The notes: generated from the sequence alone by a model not told the origin. Counted from the first letter of the stretch, positions 1,953 to 31,683 are shown. The stretch is 35,954 bases of DNA from a candidate division WOR-3 bacterium (GCA_026418155.1 JAOABV010000012.1:1-35954), one strand, 5' to 3'. Made by a program: numbers and translations.

Positions 1953-1955
1953 AAT

Positions 1956-3116
1956 ATGAACTCACGCTACAATAAACAATTAAAAGGTATTTATCAGATA
2001 TTGAACTCCGATAAAGGTGTTACACTAATGGAATTGCTGGTGGTGATTTTGATAATTGCCCTATTAGGTGCAGTCGCGTTTCGGACCATTGATGCTACAA
2101 CCAATCAATCCCGGTTTGAGGCAACAAGAAAAGAAATGTTGGAATTAGTTAAAGGCATTATCGGCAATCCCGATTTATTATCTGATGGCGTGAGAATCAA
2201 TTTTGGTTATGTCGGTGATATGGGAAAATTGCCCGATAGTTTATCAGCATTATTTTTACCTGAAGGCGACAATTGGAAAGGGCCTTATGTGTCTGGTCGT
2301 TTTAGTGAAGACCAAAAAGGCTGGTTAACCGATGCTTGGGGACAACCTTATGAATATGACAAAGCAAACCTTTTGATTAGAAGCACAGGTGGTCGACAAA
2401 CGCTAACCGCAAAAATTATTGATGATACTAATGATTTGTTTAACAATTCTATAAGTGGTGTGATTACAGATATTACCGGCGGACCGCCTGTCGAATTAGC
2501 CAACAAAATACTTATTCGCCTTATAGTGCCAAGAGATGGTATTTTAGTCACTGAGACAACTCGACCCCGACGAGATGGATTTTATGAGTTTTCTTCTGTT
2601 CCGATTGGTTATCATTTGATGGTTGTAAAAAAAGAATTTGGTACTCAAGATAGTATTATTAGAATGGTATCAGTTCCACCGCGTTCCAAGATTGTTGCCG
2701 ATTTTCGATTTGCCTCAGGATTTCGAGATAACTTGAAATATGTTGAAGGTAGTGCTAGTGCGTGGGGTGATTCATTAAATTGTATTGGATTTAGTGTTTT
2801 TAATAGTGGTGAGGCTGTTACGCTCGATTCTTTAGTCGTTATCCTTTTAGATACCACAGCATTTTATGAAAGTGTTAATTTTCAAGGAAGTGAAGTCTGG
2901 AATTATGCAGCAAGTGTCCCGCCAAGACGAGCCGGTAAAAATGATGTGGTTGCATTAAATCCGGCACCGACAATCAATACTAATAGCGTCGCGCGCTTTG
3001 ATTTAATGAATTTTAAGAATCATCAAATAAATATTTATGCACCAACAGTGGTGATGTCCGGTATCAAAATCGCAATTAAATTTAGCGACGGCTCAATTGT
3101 TGAATTCACACCATAA
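1956..3116 (+). CDS. Pseudopilin with two extra C-terminal beta-domains
   Basis: 386 residues, starting 3 nt after the stop of the previous gene. Leader cleaved after Gly21 (DKG|VTLMELLVVILII, Glu26 = E5). The core GNPDLL...GYVGDMGKLPDSL...W.GPY...DAWGQPYEY is shared with the two genes upstream. Residues ~165-250 resemble a carboxypeptidase regulatory-like domain (ISGVITDITGG... DGFYEFSSVPIGYHLMV), and ~255-386 look like a second Ig-like beta domain ending in IAIKFSDGSIVEFTP. Pseudopilins of this size are typically minor, tip-located subunits (GspK/PilX-like in position, not in sequence). Function beyond pseudopilin is not known. Confidence 0.8.
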   Translation: MNSRYNKQLKGIYQILNSDKGVTLMELLVVILIIALLGAVAFRTIDATTNQSRFEATRKEMLELVKGIIGNPDLLSDGVRINFGYVGDMGKLPDSLSALFLPEGDNWKGPYVSGRFSEDQKGWLTDAWGQPYEYDKANLLIRSTGGRQTLTAKIIDDTNDLFNNSISGVITDITGGPPVELANKILIRLIVPRDGILVTETTRPRRDGFYEFSSVPIGYHLMVVKKEFGTQDSIIRMVSVPPRSKIVADFRFASGFRDNLKYVEGSASAWGDSLNCIGFSVFNSGEAVTLDSLVVILLDTTAFYESVNFQGSEVWNYAASVPPRRAGKNDVVALNPAPTINTNSVARFDLMNFKNHQINIYAPTVVMSGIKIAIKFSDGSIVEFTP

Positions 3117-3189
3117 ATATATAAAAATTACTATGGAATGTAGTGCTAACTCAATAATTGAATTTATCCAGATTGAATGTCAATATAGG

Positions 3190-3244
3190 ATATAACGGAA
3201 GTGTATAATATTTTGTGTAAATTTAGAATTGATATGTTCAAAAT
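3190..3244 (+). repeat. Interspersed repeat, copy 1
   Basis: Core GTGTATAATATTTTGTGTAA followed by ATTTAGAATTGATATGTT. It matches 12219-12273 on the opposite strand at 51 of 55 positions by eye, and 35077-35118 more loosely. All three lie between genes. Contains a TATAAT word, but no -35 box at a suitable distance. Confidence 0.75.
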
Positions 3245-3339
3245 AAAGGTATATTTCCTTAATGATACAGAAGAACTCACCTGTAAAAAAATAATTTTAC
3301 TATTGAAATTATCAAATAAATTTATACAATATAGCGTTT

Positions 3340-3510
3340 ATGATAAATGTTCGAAAATTGATTAATCCTAAGATGATAAATATTGCTAAGGACAAAAGGG
3401 AATGTCTTAAAACTACTATGTTTTTGAGACGCCAAAAGAAACTTTATCCGACTGATGAAAGTAAAAAGATAAAAAGTAAATTATGTCAATTATCTGTAGC
3501 GATAATTTAA
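3340..3510 (+). CDS. Possible small basic protein upstream of pilM
   Basis: Open frame of 56 codons, MINVRKLINPKM at the start and SKLCQLSVAII at the end, rich in Lys and Arg, with its stop 18 nt before the TTG of pilM. A second in-frame ATG lies at 3373. No clear Shine-Dalgarno and no recognisable family. In DNA this AT-rich a frame of this length can occur by chance, so it may be noise or the relic of a gene. Confidence 0.22.
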   Translation: MINVRKLINPKMINIAKDKRECLKTTMFLRRQKKLYPTDESKKIKSKLCQLSVAII

Positions 3511-3528
3511 TAAGATTGGAGGCAAAAA

Positions 3529-5136
3529 TTGGATGTTAAGAATTTATTAGGTTCAGGTAGTAACGAAATTTTATCTATCGATATCGGCTCTTCAGCAGTA
3601 AAATATGTTAAATCAATAAGAGGCCGCATTTTTGATTATGGCGTTAGAGATATTGCTGAGATATTTGACATTCCCTCTATTTTGAAAGAATTAACCAAAG
3701 AAACCACACCTTCTCAAGTATATAGTTTTGTTTCTGGTCCAGCCGTAAGTATTCGTCAAGCAACTTTTCCCCGAATGTCTCCCAAAGAGTTAAAAGAGGC
3801 GATACTATTGAGATTAGAAAAATATTCGCCTTTTACCATTGAAGAATCAATTTTAGATTTTAGAGTTCTTTCTGATATTAAAGAAGCCGGTGTGGTCAAA
3901 GATAATGTGATGGTAGTTTCAGTTCGGCGCGATGTTATCTCAGAACATATTGCAACCTTCCGAAAAGCCGGTTTAGAGCCAACTGCGATATCAGTAGTGC
4001 CATTTGCTTTAGCAAGTGCAGTTCGAAGATTCGGTAGATTGCGTCCCAATGAGACCGTTATGGTAATAGATATCGGTGCCCAGTTTAGTAATATTATTTT
4101 CATTCGTAATCAAAAATTAGATTTTGCCCGGTCCCTGACAATTGCCGGTAATGCAATCACTGAAGCAATGACCGTCGCAATTATGACGGAAGATGGTGAA
4201 TTGTCATTAGGTATTAGTGAAGCCGAAGAGATTAAGAAGCAATATGGTATTCCTTCGGAAAATTCTACCGAAAAATTGCCTTCAGGTATCGGTGTCAAAC
4301 ATTTATTGACACTACAACAACCGGTTTTAGAAAGATTTCGGGCAGAACTACTTCGGAGTATCGATTACTATCGACGGGAATTTGCTGTAGCTAAAATCGA
4401 CCGCTTACTAATTTGTGGTGGCGGCGCCTTACTGAAAAATCTTGACAAGTATCTTGAATCTAATCTTGGGCTTCCCACTGAAGTATTTGACCCCTTTCGA
4501 AGTCACAATTTATACTTACGCAATCGTCCTTTTACCGAAGGGTTAGGTGTAAAATTAGTTGCGGTATTAGGATTAGTTTTTGAATATCCCGCAATAGAAC
4601 TGTTGCCATCAGAAATTAAATCCCGCCGGATTCAACGCCGTGACGCTAAAATTGTCACAGGCTTATTTTTATTAATTATTCCGCTTCTTATTGTCCTTAA
4701 TATCATTTTTGCTTTCCAAACGACAACGAAAAAGAGAAATGTTGAATACTATAAAAGAAAATTAAAAGCCTTCGAAATGGTTAATACCGAATATTTGGAA
4801 TTAAAAGCCGATGTTGCCGAATTAGAAGCAAAACATAAGTCATTACAAGGTATTGTCGGCGGTGAAAGCAAAGCAGTGCCAGTTTTGCGCCAATTGAGTT
4901 ATTTAGTTCCGGAAAATATTCAATTGAAAACTTTATCCCTGACTACACAAAAGGGAATAAATTTCACCGGCACAGTTTCAGGACAACCATTCCTTTTAGA
5001 TTTAGATTTGACTCAGTTTATGATGCAATTAGAAGCGTCACCCTATTTTAAGAATGTTAAATTAGTAAGCAAAACACGAACTTTACTTCAGGGCGAAACA
5101 GTTTTAGATTTTGAAATAAATTGTCAACCCCAATAA
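3529..5136 (+). CDS. pilM: PilM-PilN fusion, pilus inner-membrane assembly protein
   Basis: 535 residues. Residues 1-350 are PilM, an actin-like cytoplasmic ATPase: phosphate-1 loop DIGSSAVK (18-25), phosphate-2 loop VIDIGAQFSN (179-188), adenosine motif CGGGALLKN (296-304). The rest is PilN: AIELLPSEIKSRR (355-367), a variant of the INLLP motif with which separate PilN binds PilM, then one membrane helix (~374-396), a coiled coil (~402-440) and a periplasmic domain. Usually these are two genes of ~350 and ~180 residues; here they are one reading frame with the binding motif kept at the junction. Start is TTG, supported by GGAGG six bases upstream (3518-3522). Couples cytoplasmic and periplasmic parts of the pilus alignment complex. 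Confidence 0.9.
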   Translation: MDVKNLLGSGSNEILSIDIGSSAVKYVKSIRGRIFDYGVRDIAEIFDIPSILKELTKETTPSQVYSFVSGPAVSIRQATFPRMSPKELKEAILLRLEKYSPFTIEESILDFRVLSDIKEAGVVKDNVMVVSVRRDVISEHIATFRKAGLEPTAISVVPFALASAVRRFGRLRPNETVMVIDIGAQFSNIIFIRNQKLDFARSLTIAGNAITEAMTVAIMTEDGELSLGISEAEEIKKQYGIPSENSTEKLPSGIGVKHLLTLQQPVLERFRAELLRSIDYYRREFAVAKIDRLLICGGGALLKNLDKYLESNLGLPTEVFDPFRSHNLYLRNRPFTEGLGVKLVAVLGLVFEYPAIELLPSEIKSRRIQRRDAKIVTGLFLLIIPLLIVLNIIFAFQTTTKKRNVEYYKRKLKAFEMVNTEYLELKADVAELEAKHKSLQGIVGGESKAVPVLRQLSYLVPENIQLKTLSLTTQKGINFTGTVSGQPFLLDLDLTQFMMQLEASPYFKNVKLVSKTRTLLQGETVLDFEINCQPQ

Positions 5137-5140
5137 TTAT

Positions 5141-5179
5141 ATGAGCAATACTAAATCTGAGATAGCTGAGGAGGCGTAA
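5141..5179 (+). other. 12-codon mini-frame overlapping the pilO start
   Basis: ATG at 5141 opens MSNTKSEIAEEA and stops at TAATG, sharing one base with the pilO ATG at 5179. Its last codons contain GAGGAGG, the pilO ribosome binding site. It could couple translation of pilM and pilO or be coincidence. Confidence 0.2.
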
Positions 5180-5754
5180 TGGAATTTTTGCAACGACGAG
5201 TTTTACTCATCGGTAGCGTGATCTTGGTTGTGATTATAATATTTTTTGTAATATTCTTGTATCGACCTCATTTTGCGCGACGCGCAAAAATTGAAGAACA
5301 AATTACTGAACTAAAAAAGCAATTGAAAGAATATGAGGCAATGGTAAAGGATATTGACCGATTACGCAAACAGGTCGTAAGTTTAGAAGATGCCCGCGCA
5401 GAATTTATGGCGAAGGTTGCCCCGCGCACAGAATTGCTGACAATCGTGCGCCAATTGATTAAATTGGCCGAACCTTACCAATTAGTATTTGTCGAAATTC
5501 ATCCTCCGGGCTTAGATACCTTGAATTATACCGAGCGTCCAGAAACACCGGTGTCGCCTGTTCCTTTTGTTATTACGGTCCAAGGACGCTACATTGAAAT
5601 TGGTCGGTTTTTGGAAAAACTCCGAGAGTTTCCCTATTATCTTCGAACTCCGGAGTTTGAAATTATTGGTAAAGATGAAATTCGTCCAATGGTCGAAGCC
5701 AAAATTTTAGTAAATCTGTATGCCTCAAGTTTAATTACTGCAAGCAAGTTATGA
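5179..5754 (+). CDS. pilO: PilO, pilus inner-membrane alignment protein
   Basis: 191 residues. Short cytoplasmic end, membrane helix (~8-28), coiled coil (~33-75, EEQITELKKQLKEYEAMV), then a ferredoxin-like periplasmic domain with PFVITVQGRYIEIGRFLEKL, the usual PilO signature (GxYxxlgxFlexl). PilO pairs with PilN and links to PilP and the secretin. The position between the PilMN fusion and the PilP-like genes is the standard pilMNOPQ order. Ribosome binding site GAGGAGG lies a few bases upstream. Length is near the family norm. Confidence 0.9.
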   Translation: MEFLQRRVLLIGSVILVVIIIFFVIFLYRPHFARRAKIEEQITELKKQLKEYEAMVKDIDRLRKQVVSLEDARAEFMAKVAPRTELLTIVRQLIKLAEPYQLVFVEIHPPGLDTLNYTERPETPVSPVPFVITVQGRYIEIGRFLEKLREFPYYLRTPEFEIIGKDEIRPMVEAKILVNLYASSLITASKL

Positions 5755-5782
5755 GCCAAATAATTTACATAGTAATGGTGTT

Positions 5783-5816
5783 AGAATAAATTTATGAGAA
5801 GAATAAATTTATGAGA
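5783..5816 (+). repeat. 17-bp perfect tandem duplication spanning a start codon
   Basis: AGAATAAATTTATGAGA at 5783-5799 is repeated exactly at 5800-5816. Each unit carries an ATG. The upstream ATG (5794) is out of frame and gives a six-codon frame ending in ATGA at the real start (5811). Confidence 0.9.
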
Positions 5817-6341
5817 CGCATAATTCTTTTTATTGTTTTAGGTGTGTTAGTAATCTTTGCTTTCACTAGATTATTTTCGCGGCCTAAGCCCACAGGTGGC
5901 ACAAAGAAAAAATCTTCATCTGATACTTTAGCAGTTCGGTCTCGGCGCGGGAAAACCGCCGGACAAATTAAGACGAAAACCAAAGAAGAACTGCGCGAGG
6001 AAAAAAGACGCGCCCAAAGAGCAGAAAGAGCTCGGCTAAGAGAATTAAGACGAAGACAACGAGAACTGGAAAGAATGCGTCGCCTGAGCCGAAGAAAAAG
6101 ACGAATTCGTTCTAAAAGAGCAAAACAAATTTATGTCTTACGGGCAATAATGAAGATCGACTCAGAGAAATATGCACTAATCGATACAAGACGGATGACA
6201 ATCGGCGAAGAAATTTCCGGTCGCAAAATTGTGGAAATCGGCGATGACCGAATTGTCATTGAAGAATTCGGTCGAAGACGAGAAGTCCGAATGGGCGAAT
6301 CAATATTACCCTCGGTGCTGACGCAAAAACGTAGACGGTAG
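5811..6341 (+). CDS. PilP/GspC-like protein with arginine-rich linker
   Basis: 176 residues: N-terminal membrane helix (~3-21, IILFIVLGVLVIFAFTRLF), an Arg/Lys/Glu-rich helical stretch (~48-106, with RERAR- and RRKRRIRSKR-like runs), and a small C-terminal beta domain (~111-170: AIMKIDSEKYALID ... GRKIVEIGDDRIVIEE). The last part matches the pattern of GspC/PilP periplasmic domains (value, effective loop, G.KIV.I..D.V.L). Both ends align with the next gene, so the two are tandem paralogues differing mainly in the linker. No clear Shine-Dalgarno; the start lies inside a 17-bp duplication. The very basic linker, expected in the periplasm, is odd. Confidence 0.7.
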   Translation: MRRIILFIVLGVLVIFAFTRLFSRPKPTGGTKKKSSSDTLAVRSRRGKTAGQIKTKTKEELREEKRRAQRAERARLRELRRRQRELERMRRLSRRKRRIRSKRAKQIYVLRAIMKIDSEKYALIDTRRMTIGEEISGRKIVEIGDDRIVIEEFGRRREVRMGESILPSVLTQKRRR

Positions 6342-6398
6342 AACATAAAGATGAAACACAATTTCATTTTCATAAATTCTTAATAAGAAAGGAGTCCC

Positions 6399-6872
6399 TT
6401 GAGACAGAGAATATTATTAATTATTTTAGGTGTTGTAATTTTAATCGCACTGTATACATTTATCTTCCGAAAACCTAATCCGACTGTAGCTCGAGCCACA
6501 GTAAAAGCAAAAGCCCAAACCAAAGAAAAGGTCGCGTCAGTTAAAGAAAAAACCAAAACTACCGCAGAAGCAGTTAAAAAAATGATTCCTCCCCTTTCAG
6601 TCAAACCTGAATCCATTGTTGTGGAAACAGAGGCGGAAAAAGGTAAATGGGGAACCGACCCATTCGCACGCGGTTGGATGTTAAGCACTGAAATTACTGA
6701 CTTGCGATTAAGGGCAATAACGCAAAGCGGAAATAAAGCCTATGCCCTAATCAATGACCAAATCTTAGAAGCCGGTGAAATGATCGCAGGTAAAAAAATT
6801 GTTGCGATTGAAAAAGACCGAGTGATTTTAGAACAAAGTGGCAGGACCTTTACCTTGATTTTAGGCGAATAA
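6399..6872 (+). CDS. PilP/GspC-like pilus assembly protein
   Basis: 157 residues. Membrane helix (~4-22), Lys/Thr/Ala-rich linker (~30-62), a KWGTDPFARGW motif (~84-94) typical of PilP-type lipoproteins and GspC relatives (DPF box), and the C-terminal domain LRLRAITQSGNKAYALIND ... AGKKIVAIEKDRVILEQ. No lipobox Cys, so membrane-anchored by a helix as in GspC rather than lipidated as in many PilP. TTG start with AAAGGAG just upstream (6388-6394). Directly before the secretin, as pilP usually is; expected to link PilNO to PilQ. Confidence 0.78.
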   Translation: MRQRILLIILGVVILIALYTFIFRKPNPTVARATVKAKAQTKEKVASVKEKTKTTAEAVKKMIPPLSVKPESIVVETEAEKGKWGTDPFARGWMLSTEITDLRLRAITQSGNKAYALINDQILEAGEMIAGKKIVAIEKDRVILEQSGRTFTLILGE

Positions 6873-6958
6873 AGATTTTAGTTCCGCAATGATATATATC
6901 AATTTGAATACCATAGATAAAGATAATAAAATTTGCAATATTACTAAAAGGAGCTCAA

Positions 6959-8557
6959 ATGAATAAAAAAATATTTATCGTGTTATTTAGCATATTTTTG
7001 TTATTTATCGGAAAATTATGCTTCGGGCAAACTACTGAAGCGCAACAAGAATTAACTTTAAAATCAATAAATTATGAATTACTTTTAGATAAAGTTCGAG
7101 TCACACTCGTGTGTAATGCAACACCTTCGGTTTCGCATTTTACCTTAGACGAACCAGAGCGGATTGTTATAGATTTATTTAATACTAAACCTACTTCTGA
7201 TATTCAGGACCAAGCAGTAAATATTTTTCCAGTTCGAAAGATTAGTGTTACCCAATGGCAAGGGACTTCGACAATTACCCGGATAACGATTGAATTGGAT
7301 AATAAAGCCGAGTATAATCTGCTACGAGAAAAAAATATGGTTGTGGTTGATGTCGATGTAAAAAAGCAACGGATTGTTGAACAACCAATTGTCGATACCG
7401 AGAAAAAGGTCTCAATGTATGTAAAAGACGCTGATATTGTTGACTTGTTGCGGATGATTGGCACTCAATTTAATATCAATATCGTGGTATCGCCAGATGT
7501 GAAATCTTCAATAACAGTCCGTTTAGATAGCGTACCAGTAATGAGTGCGATTGATGCTTTGGTCAAAGCTGCGGGCTGTAATTATGTGATGTATGAATCA
7601 GGTATTATGTTGGTGAAACCCAAGGGCCGACCAGTGCCGGGCGAATTTGATTCGAGAATTTTTGAATTGGATTATGCTGAAGCAACAGATATTAAGGATG
7701 TTCTAAAACTTGTCTTGTCTGACCGAGGAACATCAGAACTCATCTTTCGCCGAGTCGCAGACGGTGGCGGTTCGAAAAGAACCGCAGCAATTCTTGTTAC
7801 CGATTATCCGGAATATCTGGAAAAGGCTGCGGCAGTAATCGCTCAGTTAGACCAACCATCAACGCAAATTGCCATAGAAGCAAAGTTTATTGAAACAACA
7901 ATGAGCACCGATAATATGTATGGTATTGATTGGTCACTACGAACTGCGGTCACCCCTGAAGTTCCAAGACCCGGCGAAATGGCAATGCCAGTAAGATTTT
8001 ATGAATTAGTAATAGGAAAACTTTCCTTAAGTCAACTTTCATTGGCATTAGAAATTATGCAGAGCGAAGGTAAATCGAGATTAATTGCTAATCCCCGAAC
8101 TATTACGCTTGATAATCAAACCGCAGAAATAAATATGGGTATTTCGGTGCCAGTTCGTTCTTTACGAGTTGACCCAGAAACCCGAGAACGATTTTATGTT
8201 TGGTCTGAACGATTTATTCCGATAGGTCTAAAAGTCACACCACATGCGACAAGCGACGGTATGATTAATATGACAATTGAACCAAAAGTTGAAGCGATAA
8301 TTGGTTATGAAGGAACACCAGAAGACCGGCGACCGATTATCACCCGACGCGAAGCCAAAACCCAAGTTATGGTTAAAGATGGTGAAGTTGTTGTGTTAGG
8401 TGGATTAATTAAAGATGAAGAGTCAAAAGTGCGAAGTAAAGTACCAATTTTAGGCGATATTCCCATTTTAGGTAAATTATTATTCAGCCGAACCCAAATT
8501 ACAAAACAAAAGAGCGAACTGATAATTTTTATTATACCGCAAATTGTTAAAACTTAA
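6959..8557 (+). CDS. pilQ: PilQ, outer-membrane secretin
   Basis: 532 residues. Signal peptide (~1-23), AMIN domain (~32-133, peptidoglycan binding in PilQ), secretin/TonB short N-domain (~150-220, YVKDADIVDLLRMIGTQF), N1 domain (~232-300, with AAILVTDYPEYLEKAAAVI), then the secretin barrel (~303-531) with the signature VPILGDIPILGKLLF (495-509) and VVVLGGLIKDE. Forms the gated outer-membrane channel for the pilus or pseudopilus. Only one N1-type domain is seen, typical of PilQ rather than GspD with its several. Ribosome binding site AAAGGAG upstream. Confidence 0.93.
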   Translation: MNKKIFIVLFSIFLLFIGKLCFGQTTEAQQELTLKSINYELLLDKVRVTLVCNATPSVSHFTLDEPERIVIDLFNTKPTSDIQDQAVNIFPVRKISVTQWQGTSTITRITIELDNKAEYNLLREKNMVVVDVDVKKQRIVEQPIVDTEKKVSMYVKDADIVDLLRMIGTQFNINIVVSPDVKSSITVRLDSVPVMSAIDALVKAAGCNYVMYESGIMLVKPKGRPVPGEFDSRIFELDYAEATDIKDVLKLVLSDRGTSELIFRRVADGGGSKRTAAILVTDYPEYLEKAAAVIAQLDQPSTQIAIEAKFIETTMSTDNMYGIDWSLRTAVTPEVPRPGEMAMPVRFYELVIGKLSLSQLSLALEIMQSEGKSRLIANPRTITLDNQTAEINMGISVPVRSLRVDPETRERFYVWSERFIPIGLKVTPHATSDGMINMTIEPKVEAIIGYEGTPEDRRPIITRREAKTQVMVKDGEVVVLGGLIKDEESKVRSKVPILGDIPILGKLLFSRTQITKQKSELIIFIIPQIVKT

Positions 8558-20904: not shown

Positions 20905-20932
20905 ATTATAATGGAAATAGGAAAAATGTCAA
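20905..20932 (-). promoter_or_regulatory. Consensus promoter of the O2/NO defence operon
   Basis: On the minus strand TTGACA (20932-20927), 16-base spacer, TATAAT (20910-20905), perfect in both hexamers; about 90 bases before the ATG at 20815. No obvious operator dyad overlaps it. Confidence 0.82.
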
Positions 20933-21124: not shown

Positions 21125-21153
21125 TTGACAATTATTAAATTTTTCATTAAGAT
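21125..21153 (+). promoter_or_regulatory. Promoter of the surface-protein operon
   Basis: TTGACA (21125-21130), 17-base spacer, TAAGAT (21148-21153). It would give a 5' leader of about 120 nt before the lipoprotein ATG. Confidence 0.5.
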
Positions 21154-21278: not shown

Positions 21279-22292
21279 ATGATACAATACAAATCTCCTA
21301 TATTGTTGTTTCTTATCTTGTGCGTCGGATTATTTATAATAGGATGCGGACGAATGCCACCTGAACCTTACTGGACCTGGACTAAAGAAGATTCGACCGC
21401 AATCCAGACTATTGTTAATGCTTGGCGCGATACATTTAAAACTACTTTTGAAGATACCGTGATAAATATTACATATTATTTGGAAGGTGACCGCGACACT
21501 TTGCGAAAAATTATGAGACGAGATCTAAGAAGTTTTTGGATGATTCCTCATTACTGGCCCAGAGCATTTAGACATAATGTATCTAATTATCAGATGGTCG
21601 ATAGTTTCATCGCAGTTAAAGACACAACTGTAATGGTCCGCCTTATGGAAAAAATGACCGGTAAAATTATCATCTATACTGATTCTTTTACTCAATATCT
21701 TCGCGATACCAATATTGCTAATAATATCTATCCGGTTTATGCGACGACATTCTCTTATGGCGACTCAGTTATAGAGAACGAATTTAAGGCAGTTTCAGTA
21801 AGACATTTGCATTTTGATAAAAAGAGCGGGAATTGGGAATTGAAAAAGATAACTGGCGGAGCACGAATTTTCTCACCAACAGAGCAAGATTACGAACCTT
21901 ATTTAGGACTATGCACGCTACGAACTAGAACTAAGACTTACCCAATATTTCTAAGGCCAGATACACTCAAATATGGGATTCAACGACTTTATGAACTGGA
22001 TAGTGTAATGAATTTCCCAATTTCGGATTCAAATAGTTTTACCGTAAGGTTATTTCCTTATGAAGCAACTGCAACAAATTACTTAGGTTATTCTCCAAGA
22101 ATTGGCTTGATATTCTTACACCACAAGGGTAAAAGGTATGATATGCGAATTCCATATGCGACACAATTGTCCCTTCCTTTCACTTTAGGATGGAATTCAG
22201 TGATTATTGAAATTGTGCCATGGGAACGGCTTTTTACTCGTAGCGGTTATAACTCGTTTATGTGGTCATTGCCCATAAAAATCAAACCTTAA
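21279..22292 (+). CDS. Lipoprotein of unknown function
   Basis: 337 residues. Type II signal peptide with lipobox FIIGC (Cys23) after a hydrophobic stretch (~8-22). The rest is soluble: WTWTKEDSTAIQTIVNAWRDTF, a middle region rich in beta-strand-like segments, and an acidic/aromatic C-terminus. No family recognised. First gene of the operon leading to the TonB receptor, with a strong AGGAGG; the 9-nt gap to the next gene implies co-translation. Possibly a surface or periplasmic partner of that receptor (inference from position). Confidence 0.8.
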   Translation: MIQYKSPILLFLILCVGLFIIGCGRMPPEPYWTWTKEDSTAIQTIVNAWRDTFKTTFEDTVINITYYLEGDRDTLRKIMRRDLRSFWMIPHYWPRAFRHNVSNYQMVDSFIAVKDTTVMVRLMEKMTGKIIIYTDSFTQYLRDTNIANNIYPVYATTFSYGDSVIENEFKAVSVRHLHFDKKSGNWELKKITGGARIFSPTEQDYEPYLGLCTLRTRTKTYPIFLRPDTLKYGIQRLYELDSVMNFPISDSNSFTVRLFPYEATATNYLGYSPRIGLIFLHHKGKRYDMRIPYATQLSLPFTLGWNSVIIEIVPWERLFTRSGYNSFMWSLPIKIKP

Positions 22293-22304
22293 CAGGAGGC
22301 GATG

Positions 22305-25241
22305 ATGAAAATTAAATATCAAACAAATATTAAAAATACATTCCGCTTGCCGCTTGCCCGTTTTGGGCATTCCGCTCTTCGCTTTTTTGCGATTTGCGGG
22401 TTACTGTTAGCGGTTAGCGGTTTATTTGCGGGTGAAACAGGTCGGATAATCGGAAGAGTTACCGATGCTCAGACCGGTGAAGCCTTAGCCGGGGTTAATG
22501 TGATTGTTGAAGGCACTGAACTTGGTGCTGCAACTGATGCTGATGGAAGATACCTTATCACTAACGTACCACCGCGAAAACATAATGTGACCGCATCATA
22601 TATCGGTTATGAGCCGATGACCGTAAAAGATGTTATGGTTATTATTGACCAAACCACGACAGTAGATTTTAAGTTAAAACCAACTGTAATTGCAATTGAT
22701 AAACCAGTTATTGTTCAAGCCGAAAGAGAAATGGTCATTAGGACGGCTGTTGCTACTACACGAACTGCTTCAGCTGAAGAGTTTAATCGCCTGCCGGTAA
22801 ATGCCCTGACTCAATTGGTAGGTCTTCAGGCAGGTGTTAGGCAAGATGAGACTCGCGGTTGGACTCATATTCGTGGCGGTAGATATGATGATGTCTCTTA
22901 TTTGATTGATGGTGTTGCCGCACGAGATGCGATTTATGGTGTGCTTTGGTCAAGTCCTAAACCAACTACAGAAGCAATTCAAGAAGTAATAGTTATTACC
23001 GGTAGTTTTGACCCGGAATATGGTGAAGCAATGTCTGGTATTGTTCAAGCGGTAACTAAAGAAGGTGGTACTAAAACGAGTTCTAAAATTAAATATACCA
23101 CAGATGAGATGTTTCCTAACGATGATTTGAATTTTGGCTATAATCAGTTACAATGGACCCTGGGCGGACCAATTCCAATGTATAACCGGATGCGTTATTT
23201 TATCTCAACTCAATATCTTAAGACTGATGATTCTCGAGATGCTCAATACAAACTTCCGGCACCAAGAGGCGAATATGCGATTGAAGGTAAATTAACTTAT
23301 AATTTGCCCAAGTCTTTTCCTTTAACCCGCGAAGGATTAAAATTGACGGTTGATGCTCATCATTCAGTCTATCAATGGCAAGCATATAGTCATGCCTGGA
23401 AGTATTGGCAGCAAGGATTGCACGCTAACCGAGTGCGTTCTTATAAAGCGAATTTCCATTTGAATCATATGTTATCACCCAAAGTCGTCTGGACCTTAAA
23501 AACCGGTGCATTTAATACTGCTCTACTCCGAGCACCACGAGATTTTGAACTTGAAGCCGAAGATACTAAAGGATTTTGGGGCGCTTTACGCAAATCAGGA
23601 ATTTGGGACCGTTATCTATTTTTAGGCGAAGACTGGGTTTTTAAAAATCCGCGCGGACTTTCAATAAAAGAGGCTCTGCTCAACTTATATCAAGGTTATA
23701 AGCCAGGTACTGTAAGTGATACGGTAAAATATCAGACGAAAATCAATGGTAGAGATACAACTTTATATCTTGCTGGATATAAACCGTTAGGCTATTATGC
23801 TGAAGATTATACAATGAATAACCCTTATGGTGTTTATGGGCTATTTGTTGGTGAAGGATACTCTTATTTCCATTACCGCTCTACCCAGACAAAATATATC
23901 AAAGGTGATATTTCTTATACGCCCAATAAGATTCATGAATTAAAAACTGGTTTTGATTTAACCCAATATCGATTACAAGAGTTTACCAATTCAATGCCTT
24001 ATGACCCGAACCCTTTCTGGGAAAGTTATGATGCCAAACCATTAACTTTTGCGGCATATATTCAGGACCGAGCGGATTTTGAAGATTTGGTGATTAGAGG
24101 CGGTGTGCGATTTGATTATCTTGATACCAAAGCGAAACATCGGGTATTTCCTGAAAGTATTGGTGGTTCGGAACGAATTCGTGACTCAATGATACCGGTG
24201 AAGAAAAAATTACGATTATCTCCCCGTCTTGGTATCTCTTATCCAATAACTGAACGTATCAAATTCCGATTTTCTTATGGTCATTTCTTTAAGAACCCAA
24301 CATTTGGCGATGTTTATTCATCATCTGAATTTACTGCTTTAGACATTACTCGTCGACCAAATTTAATTGCCGGCAATACTGATTTGTCCGCAGAAAAAAC
24401 GATTGCCTATGAGATGGGATTTGATGCTCAATTGTCAGATATTTTTGCTTTTGACTTGACAACTTTTTATAAAGATGTATTCGATTTGTCCGGCACAAGA
24501 CAGGTTCAATCAATTCCATCTTACCGGATGTATTATAATGTTGAATATGCGAGGGTTTTGGGTACTGAAGCAACTTTTACCAAACAATTAAGTGATTATT
24601 GGCGGGCATCAGCATCTTATACTTATCAAATTGCCAAAGGCACAGCTTCCACTGCTTATGCCGAATATATGCGTGGTTATGCAGTTCAAATTGATTACCC
24701 CTTAGACCATGATATGCGACACTCAGCAAGCTTAGACTTCTCTTTAAATTTCCCATCAGATTTTGTGTTCATCCCACTGCGAGATTTTGAAGGCTCAATA
24801 TTAAGTCGCTATAATTCAGGCTTACCTTATACACCAACCGATATTCGTGGTACAAGAATTGCTGACGAAAATTCCGCGCGTATGCCCGGCTCATTTACCA
24901 TTGATTCCCGGCTCAACAAATCTATAAAGATTGGAAATTTAAATATGAGTCTTTTCTGTGATATCTATAACCTATTAAATGCCGAAATTGTTCAACAGGT
25001 GTTTACCGCAACCGGAAGTCCTTCGGACCGCGGCCGAAGATTTTCCGTTGGCGAATTTTCTTTTGGCTGGCGTATTGGTGACCCATATTACCACCCAGCC
25101 CGAGATTTTAATCACGATGGCTATCTAACTCAATATGAAATGTATAAGTCCTATCTTGATGCTTATAATGACCGATTTTCAATTCCAACTTATTACGGCC
25201 CACCACGAAAAATTAGATTCGGCATAAGTCTTGGAATTTAA
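22305..25241 (+). CDS. TonB-dependent receptor with carboxypeptidase-like N-domain
   Basis: 978 residues. Signal peptide ending near GLFAG, a carboxypeptidase regulatory-like domain (~45-128: GRIIGRVTDAQTGEALAGVNVIVEG ... DGRYLITNVPP), plug domain (~150-255: GVRQDETRGWTHIRGGRYDDVSYLIDGV ... EYGEAMSGIVQAVTKEGG) and a long outer-membrane barrel ending in IRFGISLGI. This is the architecture of SusC/OmpA-type surface receptors. Two ATGs (22302, 22305) follow GGAGGCG; the second has the better spacing. Signal-peptide codons include short direct repeats. Substrate unknown; the barrel may form a complex with neighbours. Confidence 0.9.
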   Translation: MKIKYQTNIKNTFRLPLARFGHSALRFFAICGLLLAVSGLFAGETGRIIGRVTDAQTGEALAGVNVIVEGTELGAATDADGRYLITNVPPRKHNVTASYIGYEPMTVKDVMVIIDQTTTVDFKLKPTVIAIDKPVIVQAEREMVIRTAVATTRTASAEEFNRLPVNALTQLVGLQAGVRQDETRGWTHIRGGRYDDVSYLIDGVAARDAIYGVLWSSPKPTTEAIQEVIVITGSFDPEYGEAMSGIVQAVTKEGGTKTSSKIKYTTDEMFPNDDLNFGYNQLQWTLGGPIPMYNRMRYFISTQYLKTDDSRDAQYKLPAPRGEYAIEGKLTYNLPKSFPLTREGLKLTVDAHHSVYQWQAYSHAWKYWQQGLHANRVRSYKANFHLNHMLSPKVVWTLKTGAFNTALLRAPRDFELEAEDTKGFWGALRKSGIWDRYLFLGEDWVFKNPRGLSIKEALLNLYQGYKPGTVSDTVKYQTKINGRDTTLYLAGYKPLGYYAEDYTMNNPYGVYGLFVGEGYSYFHYRSTQTKYIKGDISYTPNKIHELKTGFDLTQYRLQEFTNSMPYDPNPFWESYDAKPLTFAAYIQDRADFEDLVIRGGVRFDYLDTKAKHRVFPESIGGSERIRDSMIPVKKKLRLSPRLGISYPITERIKFRFSYGHFFKNPTFGDVYSSSEFTALDITRRPNLIAGNTDLSAEKTIAYEMGFDAQLSDIFAFDLTTFYKDVFDLSGTRQVQSIPSYRMYYNVEYARVLGTEATFTKQLSDYWRASASYTYQIAKGTASTAYAEYMRGYAVQIDYPLDHDMRHSASLDFSLNFPSDFVFIPLRDFEGSILSRYNSGLPYTPTDIRGTRIADENSARMPGSFTIDSRLNKSIKIGNLNMSLFCDIYNLLNAEIVQQVFTATGSPSDRGRRFSVGEFSFGWRIGDPYYHPARDFNHDGYLTQYEMYKSYLDAYNDRFSIPTYYGPPRKIRFGISLGI

Positions 25242-25256
25242 GACACAGGAGGAGCT

Positions 25257-28200
25257 ATGATGACAAGAAAATTCAAAAATTTTAAAATTGGAAGATTAAT
25301 ATTTTATCTTATAATCTGTAATCTTTTAATCTTACAATTGGTAGATGCACGTTCTTTAACTCGTCCACCGCGCACACGTCGGATTTGGGATAAGAAATGG
25401 TTGGATATTAATCGCTGGCGGTGTCCCTTTTATAATGATGGAAGATATGCGTATGATGAAGCAACTACTGATGGCGCTGGTCGCTGGCCTTATCCTTATG
25501 AGAATACTTATATTTTTGGTGCTGGTCCTTGGGTTGGTGCAATTATTGGCGGTGATACTTTAGTGACAGTCGGTTATAATCCCAATACGGCAAGAGGTGA
25601 GTTTTATCCAACTCCAGCCAAGACTTGGGAACAAGGCACAGGCGATGCTCGTGACCGCATCTATAAGTTTCCTAACGACTGGCCACCACCTTTCGATGCC
25701 ACTAAATATGATGTAACGCCTAGGGTGCTAAGAATCGATACCACACAAATACCACCAGAGACCACATATTACACATTAGTTCCTACAAAGAATTTTTCTT
25801 TACAGGATATGTGGTGTGTCTATTGTGATTTGTCGCCAGACTATCATACTGCACCTGGTCGTCCTTTAGGTATTGAAGTCTATCAAACTATTTATGCTTG
25901 GAATTATACGAGTAATCAAGATATATTCTTTATTATCTACCGAGTAAAAAATGTTTCAGGCGATACACTGAAAAAAATGATTCTTGGTGCGTGTATGGAC
26001 CCGGATGTTGGAATGTATAATGATGATATGGTCGGTTTAATAAAAGAATTGTGTTTAGAAGGTGATACGATACCCGTGCGCAATGTTGGTTTTGTTGGCG
26101 ATGACGATAATATTGAAACACCCCGTCCCCCTTATTGGCAAGCAGGAACGCCGGGCGTGGTTGCTTATAAGTTTTTAGAGAGTCCAAGAAAACCTGATGG
26201 AACTTTAATTGGGATGTCGGCATTTAAGAAATTTACAATTGACATTGACCCAATGAAAGACGTTGACCAGTACAAAACATTAGCCGGTTATGATTATCGA
26301 ACAGGTATCTATTCGCCTTATGACTCAATCGATTTACAACCTGCTGACAAACGATTTATCCAGTGTACAGGTCCTTTTGATTTAGCTCCCGAGTCAGTTG
26401 CAACGATAATTGTTGCGGCGATAGCTGCACCATACGGTTCTGAGGGAGAATCATGGATTAACCGAGATACAACGGATTTGAAACCATTATATAAATTAGC
26501 AAAAGAAGCACAGTTTATCTATGATAACAATTGGTTATTGCCTGGTCCCCCTGTGGCATCCAATGTAACACTTATTCCTATGGACAATAAAATTAGAATC
26601 GTCTGGGATGATTTACCAGAGAGAACACCTGATCCATATTATGTTGAAGTAGCCGGCAAACCAGGAGCACCTGGTTATGACCCAGCATACAGAGCGTATG
26701 ATTTTGAGGGTTACAAAATCTACAAATCAACCGATGGTGTAAATTGGGAATTGCTAGCACATTGCGATTTAGTCAACGGTATCAAGTTCCAAATTGTTAC
26801 AGAGACCGTCATTCGTGGTGATATTAAAGAAGTGAATACCAAAATTTATGCTGAAGATACGATTACTCAGCCTGGTATGGTCACTAAAGCCAACGATTAT
26901 CGAACATTTTATTCCTTAGAAGACAAAAAAGTAACAAATGGATTTACTTATTATTATCGGGTTGCAGGGTATGATTTCAATTTCCAAACTAAAGACACTT
27001 TAACTGGTAGAATTGATACAATCAGTTTTGAATCTAATCCGACACCGGTTTCGATTAAACCGAGATGGGAAGCACCTAATTATGATACATCATTTGTTAG
27101 AATTATACGGGTTATAGGTGATACAGTGAATCCTGGTGTACGATGTAGTACAGTAATTGTTATACCTTATGCAGTAACACCGGAGACTTTGAGGATTCGA
27201 TTTGCTGGGCCTCAATATGCCGGCATGGAAAATCGGGCAGTCTATCAGTATACAGTTGATAAAGACACAACAATCAAAGTAATCTCTAACAATTGTACCA
27301 CTTATCAACGCATTACTAAAAATGTTTTTGGTCCATTTAAGTTCTATTACGATATTATTGAAGGTGCCAAAAAGATGAGACAAAAATGCCCGGCAATTGG
27401 TGGAACCGAAATTATCTTCGCTTGCTCAATACCGGTCCCAACTAAATATTTTGATACCGTGTATCCGACAATCGGCTCATATCCTAAAGAAATTCTTTAT
27501 CCGATATCAGGAACTGTGCGAAGAGCATTATGGGCATTTCGTGGCTCGGACTATAAAATCAAATGGAAAGTTGTTAATGGTAAAAGAACTTGTGAAATTT
27601 ATGACGTAACTAATAATGTTGAAGTACCGAAAACACGATTTGTAAACAGGGTTGGAAATGATTCTTTGGCTAATGGTTGGAATTTTGCAACAGACTTAAC
27701 TATAGGCCCACCATCAGATACTTTAGAACCAACTCATAAGGTTATTTATATTTGTGGTGGATTTTTTGCACTTAATTACGACCGAGCAACTAATACTCGA
27801 CAAGCAATTGGTAATCTTATTGACTCAATTCAGGATGGTGATGAATGGTTTGTTAAAGGACATAAGGGATTTGGAACCTCGCCATATCATAATCTTTTCT
27901 ATTTGATTGGCGACCGATTAGAGATTGACCGGACTCCTAATAAATATAAACTTAATGTCAAAGTTGTGCCTAATCCTTATATTGTGACCAATGATTGGGA
28001 AACGCATCAACTGGAACGCAAAATTGCTTTTATCAAGTTACCAGCAGAATGCACAATCCGTATCTTTACAGTTGCCGGTGATTTAGTAAAGGTGATACAA
28101 CACAAAGACACGCGTACTACAAAGACTAGTGCCGATGACAAGCTACAACCATTGGAATTGGGAGGAACTGAGTATTGGAATTTATTAAACGAACATGACC

Positions 28201-28283
28201 AATTGGTATCAGCCGGAATTTATATCTTCCATATTGAATCTGATATTGGCGAGCAAATTGGAAAATTTGCAATTATCCGATAA
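25257..28283 (+). CDS. Large secreted protein with FN3-like and FlgD-like domains
   Basis: 1008 residues. Signal peptide (~1-31, ICNLLILQLVDA). A long N-terminal region (~32-430) of unknown fold, an FN3-like region (~433-600: PPVASNVTLIPMDNKIRIVW ... GYKIYKSTDGVNWELL ... FTYYYRVAGYDF), then ~100 C-terminal residues of FlgD Ig-like/type IX sorting-like form: KVVPNPYIVTND, CTIRIFTVAGDLVKVI, EYWNLLNEHDQLVSAGIYIF. Such tails target proteins to the surface in Bacteroidota; whether that machinery exists here is open. Shine-Dalgarno GGAGG four bases before the first of two ATGs. Between the TonB receptor and PorV. Confidence 0.8.
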   Translation: MMTRKFKNFKIGRLIFYLIICNLLILQLVDARSLTRPPRTRRIWDKKWLDINRWRCPFYNDGRYAYDEATTDGAGRWPYPYENTYIFGAGPWVGAIIGGDTLVTVGYNPNTARGEFYPTPAKTWEQGTGDARDRIYKFPNDWPPPFDATKYDVTPRVLRIDTTQIPPETTYYTLVPTKNFSLQDMWCVYCDLSPDYHTAPGRPLGIEVYQTIYAWNYTSNQDIFFIIYRVKNVSGDTLKKMILGACMDPDVGMYNDDMVGLIKELCLEGDTIPVRNVGFVGDDDNIETPRPPYWQAGTPGVVAYKFLESPRKPDGTLIGMSAFKKFTIDIDPMKDVDQYKTLAGYDYRTGIYSPYDSIDLQPADKRFIQCTGPFDLAPESVATIIVAAIAAPYGSEGESWINRDTTDLKPLYKLAKEAQFIYDNNWLLPGPPVASNVTLIPMDNKIRIVWDDLPERTPDPYYVEVAGKPGAPGYDPAYRAYDFEGYKIYKSTDGVNWELLAHCDLVNGIKFQIVTETVIRGDIKEVNTKIYAEDTITQPGMVTKANDYRTFYSLEDKKVTNGFTYYYRVAGYDFNFQTKDTLTGRIDTISFESNPTPVSIKPRWEAPNYDTSFVRIIRVIGDTVNPGVRCSTVIVIPYAVTPETLRIRFAGPQYAGMENRAVYQYTVDKDTTIKVISNNCTTYQRITKNVFGPFKFYYDIIEGAKKMRQKCPAIGGTEIIFACSIPVPTKYFDTVYPTIGSYPKEILYPISGTVRRALWAFRGSDYKIKWKVVNGKRTCEIYDVTNNVEVPKTRFVNRVGNDSLANGWNFATDLTIGPPSDTLEPTHKVIYICGGFFALNYDRATNTRQAIGNLIDSIQDGDEWFVKGHKGFGTSPYHNLFYLIGDRLEIDRTPNKYKLNVKVVPNPYIVTNDWETHQLERKIAFIKLPAECTIRIFTVAGDLVKVIQHKDTRTTKTSADDKLQPLELGGTEYWNLLNEHDQLVSAGIYIFHIESDIGEQIGKFAIIR

Positions 28284-28306
28284 GGTCAACGACCATGGAG
28301 GCAATA

Positions 28307-29380
28307 ATGACGATTCAAAGATTCAAAGATTCGAAGATTCCAAGATTGATGTTATGTCTTGTAATCTGTAATCTACTAATTTTCTCATTAACGGCGATAT
28401 ATGCGGATGTTAAGTTTTCAAAAGTAGGAACAACCAGTGCTCAGTTCTTAAAAATTAGCGTTGGTCGCGCATCTGGAATGGGCGATGCTTTTGTGGCAAT
28501 TGCTGATGACGCTTCGGCTACTTATTTTAATCCCGCCGGTCTTTCACAAATTAGTAAACGCGAAGGATTGTTCAGTCATATTAATTGGATTGCCGACCTT
28601 AATCATGACTATATTTCAATGGCTCTACCAACAAAATTAGGAACGATTGCCTTTTCCGCAACGGCACTTACAATGGGTGATATGGAGCGATTAATGATTG
28701 ATAATCCTAAGACCACGGTCCGAGAAGATACAGCAACTGGTTTATATTTTAGTGCAGCGGATTTATCATTGGCAGTTTCTTACGGTCGCCAAATAACGGA
28801 TAAACTTTCTTTCGGCTTTTCTACGAAAGCAATCTCGCAATCTATCTGGAACATGAGTGCAACAGGCGCAGCATTTGACTTTGGTCTTTTTTATAATACC
28901 GGCTATAGAAGTTTGCGATTAGGTGCAGTGATTACTAATTTTGGAACTGCGATGTCTTTTTCTGGTTTAGGCCTTGAATTCCAAGATACAACGCTTAAAA
29001 CAAAACCGCGCGCAGTCTACAAAACGACGCCAACTACTTTACCGACAACTTTCCGTTTTGGTATTGCTTATAATTTTATTGAAACTCCTAATGATATACT
29101 GACAATGGCATTAGATTTGGTTCATCCTAATGATATTAATGAAACGGTAAATGTTGGTCTGGAATATGCATACAAAAAATTGTTATTCTTGCGGACAGGA
29201 TATATTCTAAATACAGACCTTGAATATGCCAAAGCACTTAAATATTCAACTGGATTATCGGCAGGTGCTGGAGTTAAATTCGATTTGAAATCAGGAATGA
29301 ATTTACGACTTGACTATTGTTATCGTGATATGGGATGGTTAAAAGGTGCACATCGCTTGATACTCGGAATCGGATTTTAA
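28307..29380 (+). CDS. PorV/PorQ-family outer-membrane protein
   Basis: 357 residues. Signal peptide (~1-32), then the PorV N-terminal block TSAQFLKISVGRASGMGDAFVAIADDASATYFNPAGLSQ split by conserved Gly/Asn-Pro-Ala-Gly, and a beta-barrel of the FadL/OMPP1 type ending in HRLILGIGF (C-terminal Phe). PorV in Bacteroidota shuttles type IX cargo from the translocon to the attachment complex. The track of an upstream ATG at 28295 is discounted: GGAGG (28297-28301) lies inside that extension, five bases before ATG 28307. Last gene before a strong terminator. Confidence 0.88.
   Translation: MTIQRFKDSKIPRLMLCLVICNLLIFSLTAIYADVKFSKVGTTSAQFLKISVGRASGMGDAFVAIADDASATYFNPAGLSQISKREGLFSHINWIADLNHDYISMALPTKLGTIAFSATALTMGDMERLMIDNPKTTVREDTATGLYFSAADLSLAVSYGRQITDKLSFGFSTKAISQSIWNMSATGAAFDFGLFYNTGYRSLRLGAVITNFGTAMSFSGLGLEFQDTTLKTKPRAVYKTTPTTLPTTFRFGIAYNFIETPNDILTMALDLVHPNDINETVNVGLEYAYKKLLFLRTGYILNTDLEYAKALKYSTGLSAGAGVKFDLKSGMNLRLDYCYRDMGWLKGAHRLILGIGF
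28312..28348 (+). repeat. 8-bp tandem repeat in the PorV signal-peptide codons
   Basis: GATTCAAA twice, then GATTCGAA, GATTCCAA and GATTG: four to five units of an 8-bp repeat, out of step with codons, coding IQRFKDSKIPRL. The start of the 25257 gene has related DNA. Confidence 0.6.
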
Positions 29381-29406
29381 TTTATAATTTTTTTTTAAAT
29401 ATACAC

Positions 29407-29442
29407 GGGGCATTCGATTTGGATACGGATGCCCCTTTTTTT
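29407..29442 (+). terminator. Rho-independent terminator after the surface operon
   Basis: GGGGCATTCG (29407-29416) pairs with CGGATGCCCC (29426-29435): 10-bp stem with one G-T pair, 9-nt loop, then seven T (29436-29442). The next base begins the ATG of the peptidase gene. Confidence 0.88.
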
Positions 29443-31683
29443 ATGATGACGACGACTTACAAAAAAAGAAACAATGCAATTTCACAGATTGGCATAAGTT
29501 CGTTTTCTAAATTGATATTTCTCGCAGTAATCTTGTGTAATTTTGTGGTTAAAAATTCGGCGGCTTTGGATTGGACAGTAATGGTCTATATGTGCGCAGA
29601 TAATGGAATGAATTATCAAAGTTATGACGACCTAAATGAAATGAAAGAAGTTGGTTCTTCGGAAAGAGTAAAAATTATTGTTCAAGTTGATAATTTAGCT
29701 GGTGATATTCAGCCATATGGTCGTAGATGTGTGATTAATCAAAATCAAATTGTTCAATTGGAAAATTTAGGCGAAATTGATATGGCTGACCCACAAGCTT
29801 TAATCGAATTTGTGCGGTTCGGCTATCGTTACTTTAATGCTCAGAAATATCTTTTGATTCTCTGGGACCACGGCAACGGCTGGCCTATTGGTTATTATCC
29901 GTCATCAAAAGATAAGGCAGTTATTTATGACGAATCGCATAATAATTGGATGGGAGTTGCTGATGGTGAATTAAACTATGCTGTTAAAGAAATTAAAAAA
30001 ATTCTTCGCAAAAATGTCGCTATTCTTGGTTTTGATGCCTGTCTCATGGGAATGGCAGAAGTTGCTGGTGAAATTGCCGAAGGCGTTGATTATATGTTTG
30101 CTTCCGAAGAAGTTTTGCCTTATGATGGATTACCCTATAATGATTTAATATCTTATCTTATCCAAAATCCCAATATTTCGGCAAAGGATTTAGCTCCTAA
30201 TATGGTTTCAATTGCTACTAATTCTTATAACAACGGGTCACAGGGTCGTGAAGAATGCACATTTTCCGCAATTGATCTAAAACAATTTGATGCGGCCCAC
30301 AATAAATTTTCATCATCACTTACAATATTGTCGCGATATGCCAAGACACCAGAAATGAGACAAGCAAGAAATTCGGTGCAAACTTTTGCGATTGAATGCG
30401 ACTCATATCCAGCAGGACCAAATGATGATTACATTGATTTAATCGATTTTTTAGAATTGAGTATTAATGCGGTCACAAATGCTAATGATAAAACTGAATG
30501 TCAAAAGGCGATTGATTTATTTAAAAAATCAGTTGTGGCTAAAGGTTATGTCGGAAATTATCTTGCTCGAGCAAAAGGGATTGCAGTCTGGTTTCCTGAT
30601 AACTATATTGCATTCAAACATCAGTATTTAGATTATCAAAATTTACAATGGCAAAAAAATGTCAATTGGCTTTATTTTCTCAATAATTTTTATGGGATAG
30701 ATGACATTAAACCAAGTTCGGTTAATCTTATCCGTTCTTCAATTGGTGGCAAAAATGATTTTCGGTTGATGTGGAACAAAAGTCATGATTTGGCGCCAGT
30801 GAGATATGACTTACTACAAATAAATAGTATTGAACAAATCTTTGAGGATAATTGCGATAGTTTTTCATCTTGGCTTAATGATGGATTTGTATTATCATCA
30901 TTATATAATTATCCAAGAACTTGTTTTTATACAGGAATCGGAAATAATGTAAGTATTAAGTTAACAATAAAAGACTCAGTCAATTTAACTGAAGCGGGTT
31001 TTCTGTCTTTCTTAACCCACTATTATACTGAAGAAAACTATTGCAATAATAGTATTAAGCGCGATGTATTTTATGTTGAAGTTTCAGAAGATGGTAATAA
31101 TTATTTACCAATAGATTCTTTTTATGGAAAGAATATAGGTTGGACCGAACATCGTTATCTGTTGCCACAATCTGATTATCTTTGGATCAGATTTCGGTAT
31201 ACAACTGACGGAACTTATCCTGATAGTGGAGTGTTTATTGATAATATAAAAATCTATAAATTTAGTGATTTTCGGAGAATAGGTGAAAATCTTGAAGATA
31301 CCTTTTTATATCTATTTAATATGCCCCAAGATAAGTATTATTATATGATTCAGCCTATAGATTCTTTTGGCAATATTGGATTTTTAAGTTCAGCGCAAGA
31401 AGTATTAATTGAAAACTATTGTGAACCTTTTTCTTTACCGTCGCCTTTTTTTACTGACTGTAATATCTACTGTGATTTTCCTGCGGACCAAGAGCCGAGT
31501 CTTTATATTTATACTTTATCGGGTGAATTGATTAAGAAATTTACTTATGACGATTTTATTGGCAATGTAGTTTATTGGAATGGAAAGAATGAATCTGGTA
31601 AAGAAATTGCCAGTGGATTGTATTTAGTTTTACTTAAAGGTAAAAACTTTACTCGGGTCGGAAAAATTGCTAAAGTAAAATAA
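29443..31683 (+). CDS. Secreted clostripain-family (C11) cysteine peptidase
   Basis: 746 residues. Signal peptide (~18-42, SKLIFLAVILCNFVVKNSAA), C11 peptidase domain (~43-400) with WTVMVYMCADNGM, catalytic His143 (LWDHGNGW) and Cys200 (GFDACLMGMAEVAGEI). Then a jelly-roll/MAM-like region (~470-620) and a C-terminal FlgD/type IX-like tail (~670-746: LYIYTLSGELIKKF ... VYWNGKNESGKEIASGLYLVLL). ATG 29443 is chosen because the frame upstream is inside PorV and its terminator; a second ATG follows at 29446. No Shine-Dalgarno exists: the start abuts the terminator T-run. A likely cargo of the PorV-linked export route; arginine-type cleavage specificity is typical of clostripain but not proven here. 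Confidence 0.88.
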   Translation: MMTTTYKKRNNAISQIGISSFSKLIFLAVILCNFVVKNSAALDWTVMVYMCADNGMNYQSYDDLNEMKEVGSSERVKIIVQVDNLAGDIQPYGRRCVINQNQIVQLENLGEIDMADPQALIEFVRFGYRYFNAQKYLLILWDHGNGWPIGYYPSSKDKAVIYDESHNNWMGVADGELNYAVKEIKKILRKNVAILGFDACLMGMAEVAGEIAEGVDYMFASEEVLPYDGLPYNDLISYLIQNPNISAKDLAPNMVSIATNSYNNGSQGREECTFSAIDLKQFDAAHNKFSSSLTILSRYAKTPEMRQARNSVQTFAIECDSYPAGPNDDYIDLIDFLELSINAVTNANDKTECQKAIDLFKKSVVAKGYVGNYLARAKGIAVWFPDNYIAFKHQYLDYQNLQWQKNVNWLYFLNNFYGIDDIKPSSVNLIRSSIGGKNDFRLMWNKSHDLAPVRYDLLQINSIEQIFEDNCDSFSSWLNDGFVLSSLYNYPRTCFYTGIGNNVSIKLTIKDSVNLTEAGFLSFLTHYYTEENYCNNSIKRDVFYVEVSEDGNNYLPIDSFYGKNIGWTEHRYLLPQSDYLWIRFRYTTDGTYPDSGVFIDNIKIYKFSDFRRIGENLEDTFLYLFNMPQDKYYYMIQPIDSFGNIGFLSSAQEVLIENYCEPFSLPSPFFTDCNIYCDFPADQEPSLYIYTLSGELIKKFTYDDFIGNVVYWNGKNESGKEIASGLYLVLLKGKNFTRVGKIAKVK

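Follow-up and report, generated by a model that had tools for sequence, protein, structure and literature searches.

The five-gene operon analysed here is best read as a cargo-carrier-receptor cassette making use of a type IX-like export system whose own genes lie elsewhere in the genome, a reading to which a probability of roughly 0.6 is assigned. It lies in a 35,954-nucleotide stretch of DNA (the window; contig C12) from a candidate division WOR-3 bacterium, whose genome comprises 1.74 Mb in 122 contigs and is 95% complete. The genes encode, in order, a lipoprotein (LIPO), a TonB-dependent receptor (TBDR), a 1008-residue protein (P1008), a PorV/PorQ-family barrel and a C11 clostripain-type peptidase (Table 1). 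This arrangement had been described in an earlier note on the window and is borne out, and Pfam and profile searches confirm the families of the receptor, the PorV-family barrel and the peptidase. The same note had suggested that the cassette is a reduced or variant export module, an interpretation that is not supported, given that a canonical PorV is encoded elsewhere, that the translocon and sortase stand on other contigs, and that the cassette is found repeatedly together with a TBDR and, in a sister copy, with ExbBD-TonB. Such recurrence makes the cassette look like a unit for uptake that relies on the export system.

Table 1. Features of the operon and its upstream region, with positions counted from the first letter of the window.
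Feature	Position	Strand	Basis or remark
Possible promoter TTGACA-17-TAAGAT, upstream of the operon	21125..21153	+	Consensus scan only, 10/12; not evidence of function
LIPO, 337-aa lipoprotein, first gene of the operon	21279..22292	+	Lipobox LFIIGC
TBDR, 979 aa, CarboxypepD_reg + plug + barrel	22302..25241	+	Pfam PF13620/PF13715/PF07715/PF00593
P1008, 1008 aa, hydrophobic, Sec-signal-like N-terminus; body without known domain	25257..28283	+	
P1008 C-terminal sorting-type domain (KVVPNPYIV ... GIYIFHIESDIGEQIGKFAIIR), Lys1003 invariant	27933..28280	+	hhalign
PorV/PorQ-family barrel, 361 aa	28295..29380, start probably 28307	+	NF033709
C11 clostripain-type peptidase with C-terminal sorting-type tail	29335..31683, start probably ~29443-29446	+	PF03415

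All five reading frames lie on the plus strand at the positions listed and are separated by short gaps. A GGAGG Shine-Dalgarno-like motif precedes the starts of LIPO, TBDR and P1008, and GGAGG also stands ahead of the codon that is probably the true start of the PorV gene; with this start and that of the peptidase gene revised as in Table 1, no overlap between the two genes is needed. On the minus strand, a perfect TTGACA-16-TATAAT match at 20905-20932 (consensus scan only) points towards divergent thioredoxin/hemerythrin genes. Positions 416-8557 of the window hold type IV pilus-type genes, namely two N_methyl pilins, PilM/PilN, PilO and a secretin with an AMIN domain.

By gene content, the outer-membrane components of a type IX-like export system are present in this WOR-3 genome. 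SprA is a 1927-residue protein on contig C43 that scores 432 bits on TIGR04189 (cut-off 200), and a PDB search with its profile recovers SprA of Flavobacterium johnsoniae (E 7e-84). Matches to SprA were obtained in 118 of 120 WOR-3 genomes, 109 of them above the cut-off, and in all 21 genomes of the order that were searched. Among the SprA loci whose gene tables were examined, the gene mostly stands behind what are taken, by eye from the protein starts, to be folD, a polyprenyl synthetase gene and dxs; some contigs end sooner. The PorU sortase reaches 449 bits on NF033707 (cut-off 420), TIGR04183 type A tails give 83 matches in the genome, 82 of them above the cut-off, and eleven C25 peptidase matches were counted. 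The suggestion of a type IX-like route outside Bacteroidota, which hinged on finding SprA and PorU, is supported by the presence of both together with the 82 tails. A literature search found no description of such a system in WOR-3, and two papers on WOR-3 make no mention of secretion, which is not proof that none exists.

The P1008 family is present in 115 of the 120 genomes of the phylum, and of the 115 sampled genomes with P1008, 113 also have SprA, both being near universal. Among high-quality genomes, SprA is found in 88/88 and P1008 in 87/88. The remaining two sampled genomes, G037 and G065, have P1008 and gave no SprA match. They could be cited, along with the placement of cargo, carrier and peptidase side by side, for a cassette that by itself forms a reduced export route, with PorV and TBDR carrying P1008 outward without SprA. 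However, these genomes are only 77% and 87% complete, against the near-complete co-occurrence in the high-quality set, the cassette holds no recognisable translocation pore, and SprA and PorU are encoded in the window's own genome, all of which makes a stand-alone route very improbable.

The barrel of the window scores 195 bits on NF033709, the PorV/PorQ family model (cut-off 90). No PorP/SprF model matched it, and pairing of the window genes in the PorP/SprF or type B manner was rejected for want of a profile match. The canonical PorV is a separate gene beside what is presumably purA, named by eye, and PorU, PorV and purA are adjacent in relatives; the canonical protein passed the PorV_fam model and scored 115 bits on the T9SS_OM_PorV equivalog (cut-off 250). 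PorV-family matches occur at ten places in the genome. In the PorV tree, cassette PorVs are grouped (90/88) apart from the canonical PorVs (100/99), and the PorVs of another ExbB locus form a group of their own (100/100). The window-type group receives 97/90, and five rows of the sister group, all from the same order, receive 99/97; L100 and L102, sister-group rows from another class, fall elsewhere, and the PorV of Rhodothermus marinus sits on a long branch and was not placed. By these groupings, the window PorV belongs to the cassette group and is distinct from the canonical PorV.

P1008 has no Pfam domain match, and its profile gave no clear match in the PDB. Its tail matched TIGR04183 neither in the protein search nor in the genome search of contig C12, and the tail of the C11 peptidase reached 13.5 bits (E 0.055) on this model, below the cut-off of 23. 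The tails were compared by profile-profile alignment (hhalign) with 16 CTD segments (15 distinct) taken from this genome and with eight control segments. The P1008 tail profile, built from 18 tails, matched these CTDs at 94% (E about 1e-8; 95% with a 10-member set), the C11 tail matched them at 98% (E 6e-13), and the controls gave 0.12% or less. On this profile similarity, both window tails are homologous to the type A tails of the same genome; as both fall below the TIGR04183 cut-off, their class is type A-like, not certified type A. The tails that the earlier note had called FlgD-like are real on both proteins, although the likeness is remote, with no Pfam hit in P1008 and the low score of the C11 tail. 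Conservation of the tails is about equal to that of the remainder of the proteins, which makes this comparison uninformative. The lysine K1003 of P1008 is invariant in 18 members; it was compared with the near-invariant CTD lysine that contacts PorV (PMC10994853) and is counted in favour of the export reading.

A P1008 paralogue on contig C41 (L084:3-2837) aligns along P1008 and carries a TIGR04183 tail of 38 bits at the same position. No PorV gene lies directly downstream of it, and its upstream side and start are cut by the contig end. An ordinary tail on a protein without an adjoining PorV agrees with a pairing of P1008 and its carrier, as suggested by this single case examined closely. In two other loci (L091:14331-15716 and L092:14334-15803), short proteins consist of the N-terminal region of P1008 alone plus a TIGR04183 tail barely above the cut-off, and their genes are convergent to a PorV-like gene.

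These data also bear on whether the genes form an ordinary TonB uptake operon, in which the barrel would be a FadL-type porin or scaffold, the Ig-like tails periplasmic or structural, and P1008 not exported via SprA. Such an operon would agree with tails below the TIGR04183 cut-off and with the weaker likeness of the window barrel to BamG (24 bits) and, in Pfam, to FadL/Toluene_X, BamG being a FadL homologue that serves as a scaffold for surface lipoproteins in the BAM complex of Bacteroidota (PMC12578637). Nevertheless, the sole sequence relative of the barrel in the PDB, and hence its nearest solved one, is PorV from the SprA complex of F. johnsoniae (E 2e-14). In profile comparison, both tails are similar to CTDs of the genome, the C41 paralogue bears a recognised tail where P1008 has its own, and P1008 accompanies SprA in nearly all sampled genomes, though both are near universal. 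An operon of this kind is therefore considered unlikely.

The order LIPO, TBDR, P1008, PorV and C11 protease is kept in several families across the order and so does not reflect chance. In nearly all cassettes LIPO stands upstream of TBDR. Of 25 full-length P1008 genes, R. marinus included, all 24 with a readable upstream side have a TBDR gene immediately before them, and a PorV gene follows immediately in 22 of the 24 loci where this could be tested (the exceptions being the C41 paralogue and L090), in a sample of best matches to the window protein that favours conserved arrangements. The TBDR-P1008-PorV core recurs in other classes and on plasmid pRMAR01 of R. marinus (NC_013502.1). The window's genome holds a sister cassette (contig C21) that, like those of relatives, has exbB-exbD-exbD-tonB in front. 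The trees of TBDR and P1008 each set the window-type group on one side of a branch (SH-aLRT 99 for TBDR and 98 for P1008), and they do the same for the sister group (100 in both). As the TBDR, P1008 and PorV trees each separate the window-type group, the pattern fits joint inheritance of the trio.

The lipobox cysteine of LIPO (C23) is invariant in 14 relatives; a Pfam search assigned the protein to no family, and its profile gave no clear match in the PDB. The CarboxypepD_reg, plug and barrel domains of TBDR are recognised in Pfam at E 5e-27 to 4e-5, and the PDB entries matched by its profile include FepA/Cir-type receptors and RagA; on the SusC-type model TIGR04056 it scores 70.3 bits, below the cut-off of 368. 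No SusD family was found in any operon protein with Pfam and curated profiles for a SusD/RagB-type lid lipoprotein, so that a lid role for P1008 is an analogy. An Rfam search for a riboswitch as a clue to the TBDR substrate found no element. The C11 peptidase matches the clostripain family PF03415 at E 9e-47, and H179 (HGNGW motif) and C236 (DACLM motif) are invariant in 10 orthologues.

As a customer of the export system, the cassette would probably work as follows. P1008 and the C11 protease would pass the inner membrane via Sec and leave through SprA in the outer membrane, and P1008 would be collected by the PorV encoded directly downstream. It would stay on the surface with its own PorV beside TBDR, as an outer subunit acting as a lid or capture module, much as RagB or SusD does for RagA or SusC. 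As in the RagAB case, P1008 and LIPO may serve TBDR on the outside, where the C11 protease would release material (peptides) that the receptor imports. Import would be energised by TonB, for which the ExbB-ExbD-ExbD-TonB genes before the sister cassette are the only clear module of the window's genome. A dedicated carrier role is proposed for the cassette PorV by analogy with the type B shuttles of F. johnsoniae, in which dedicated PorP/SprF proteins are encoded directly downstream of their cargo (PMC12618676). The putative pairing is drawn from gene order rather than from a predicted complex, both structure predictions being poor. That of the window PorV has a pLDDT of 32 and is unusable, and that of the P1008 tail alone has a pLDDT of 50 and weak Foldseek matches only; the fourth of these is the NucA CTD in a T9SS complex (8glk_D, E 0.22) and is not relied on.

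The motor components give a less complete picture. For GldK (TIGR03525, cut-off 350), matches were obtained in 6 of 21 genomes with a best score of 99.6 bits and no orthologue; they are probably generic FGE-type proteins, because the model also matches Bacillus subtilis and other controls. GldL, GldM and GldN were each found in 0 of 21 genomes, and as these models matched nothing in any control genome either, their absence carries less weight and a divergent motor may have been missed. Of the PorK/N and PorL/M homologues that the earlier note had proposed to search for, no orthologue of PorK was found; PorL, PorM and PorN gave no match where the controls were silent too. With no recognisable GldKLMN, the energy for release from SprA would come from another source.

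The only two MotA/ExbB/TolQ genes of the window's genome belong to a Tol-Pal-like locus and to the sister cassette. The former (L127:6785-12329, contig C16) holds TonB_2, ExbD, ExbB, TPR and OmpA genes, with a serpin gene about 0.6 kb beyond. Several relatives outside the window's family have a second, conserved ExbB locus (L138:3439-12258 in G006:C3; similarly L137 and L139-L144), which encodes a FlgD-Ig protein, a PorV-like barrel with a CHU_C/FlgD domain, an 837-residue TPR protein, ExbB, one or more ExbD proteins, TonB and a FlgD-Ig+OmpA protein. In its gene content, this locus resembles an envelope-spanning energy module and is a candidate substitute for the motor; the searches did not recover it from the window's own genome or family.

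Carrier release has been deduced to be an energy-requiring step (PMC10994853). It is conceivable, therefore, that ExbBD-TonB and TBDR are themselves the motor of a type IX-like system, replacing GldLM and the GldKN ring, with TonB-linked complexes pulling loaded carriers off SprA. The unrecognised GldKLMN, the two loci to which the ExbB-type genes of this genome are confined and the further ExbBD-TonB set beside a PorV-like barrel in several relatives would all suit this arrangement. Since TonB is normally used by TBDRs for import, since the second ExbB-PorV locus was not found in the window's own family, and since the silent GldL/GldM/GldN models leave room for a divergent motor, it is rated quite unlikely. 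A broader proposal is tentative and doubtful as a whole: type IX-like export in WOR-3 without GldKLMN, in which another ion-driven module, of ExbBD-TonB or Tol type, would release loaded carriers from SprA and cargo-specific PorV carriers would serve type A-like tails.

Type IX secretion is, in textbooks, a system of Bacteroidota only. Recent papers still describe it as exclusive to that phylum (PMC12618676) and to the Bacteroidetes-Chlorobi-Fibrobacteres group (PMC12421860). SprA in 118/120 WOR-3 genomes, together with PorU, PorV and tails in the window's genome, moves the known range of the system. The genome shares with the Bacteroidota T9SS an SprA, a PorU above its cut-off, a PorV-family carrier, many type A tails and, in relatives, the PorU-PorV adjacency. 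It differs in the length of SprA (1927 residues against 2403 in F. johnsoniae), in its host phylum, and in that a GldK orthologue was not found and GldL, GldM and GldN were not found with models that lack a positive control. If the motor were truly missing, it would become possible to ask what belongs to the export machine proper and what is a Bacteroidota addition.

In Porphyromonas gingivalis, gingipains are T9SS cargo. The window operon resembles RagAB/SusCD in its TBDR with a CarboxypepD_reg domain, its co-encoded lipoprotein and putative surface partner, and a protease, predicted to be secreted, nearby; unlike them, it has no SusD/RagB lid, and the partner P1008 has a sorting-type tail and a PorV. 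With type B cargo and its PorP/SprF shuttle in F. johnsoniae (PMC12618676), it shares a carrier gene directly downstream of a putative CTD client, whereas its carrier is of the PorV family and the P1008 tail is type A-like, with no type B match. A parallel in gene order outside the phylum is offered by the R. marinus plasmid.

The pRMAR01 cassette (L135:7874-15016), annotated as TonB-dependent receptor, hypothetical protein and PorV/PorQ family protein, has in the same order a TBDR, a P1008-like protein of 1132 residues with the same tail design and a PorV/PorQ protein. It differs from that of the window in being plasmid-borne, in having an upstream FG-GAP protein with a TIGR04183 tail in place of LIPO, and in that no C11 protease is annotated behind it. 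The cassette stands beside CRISPR genes, and its host is a cultured organism (strain DSM 4252). WOR-3 itself has a cultured strain, sy37 (PMC12285271). The shared TBDR-P1008-PorV design would provide a simple test case, in cultured organisms, for PorV-family proteins as dedicated carriers.
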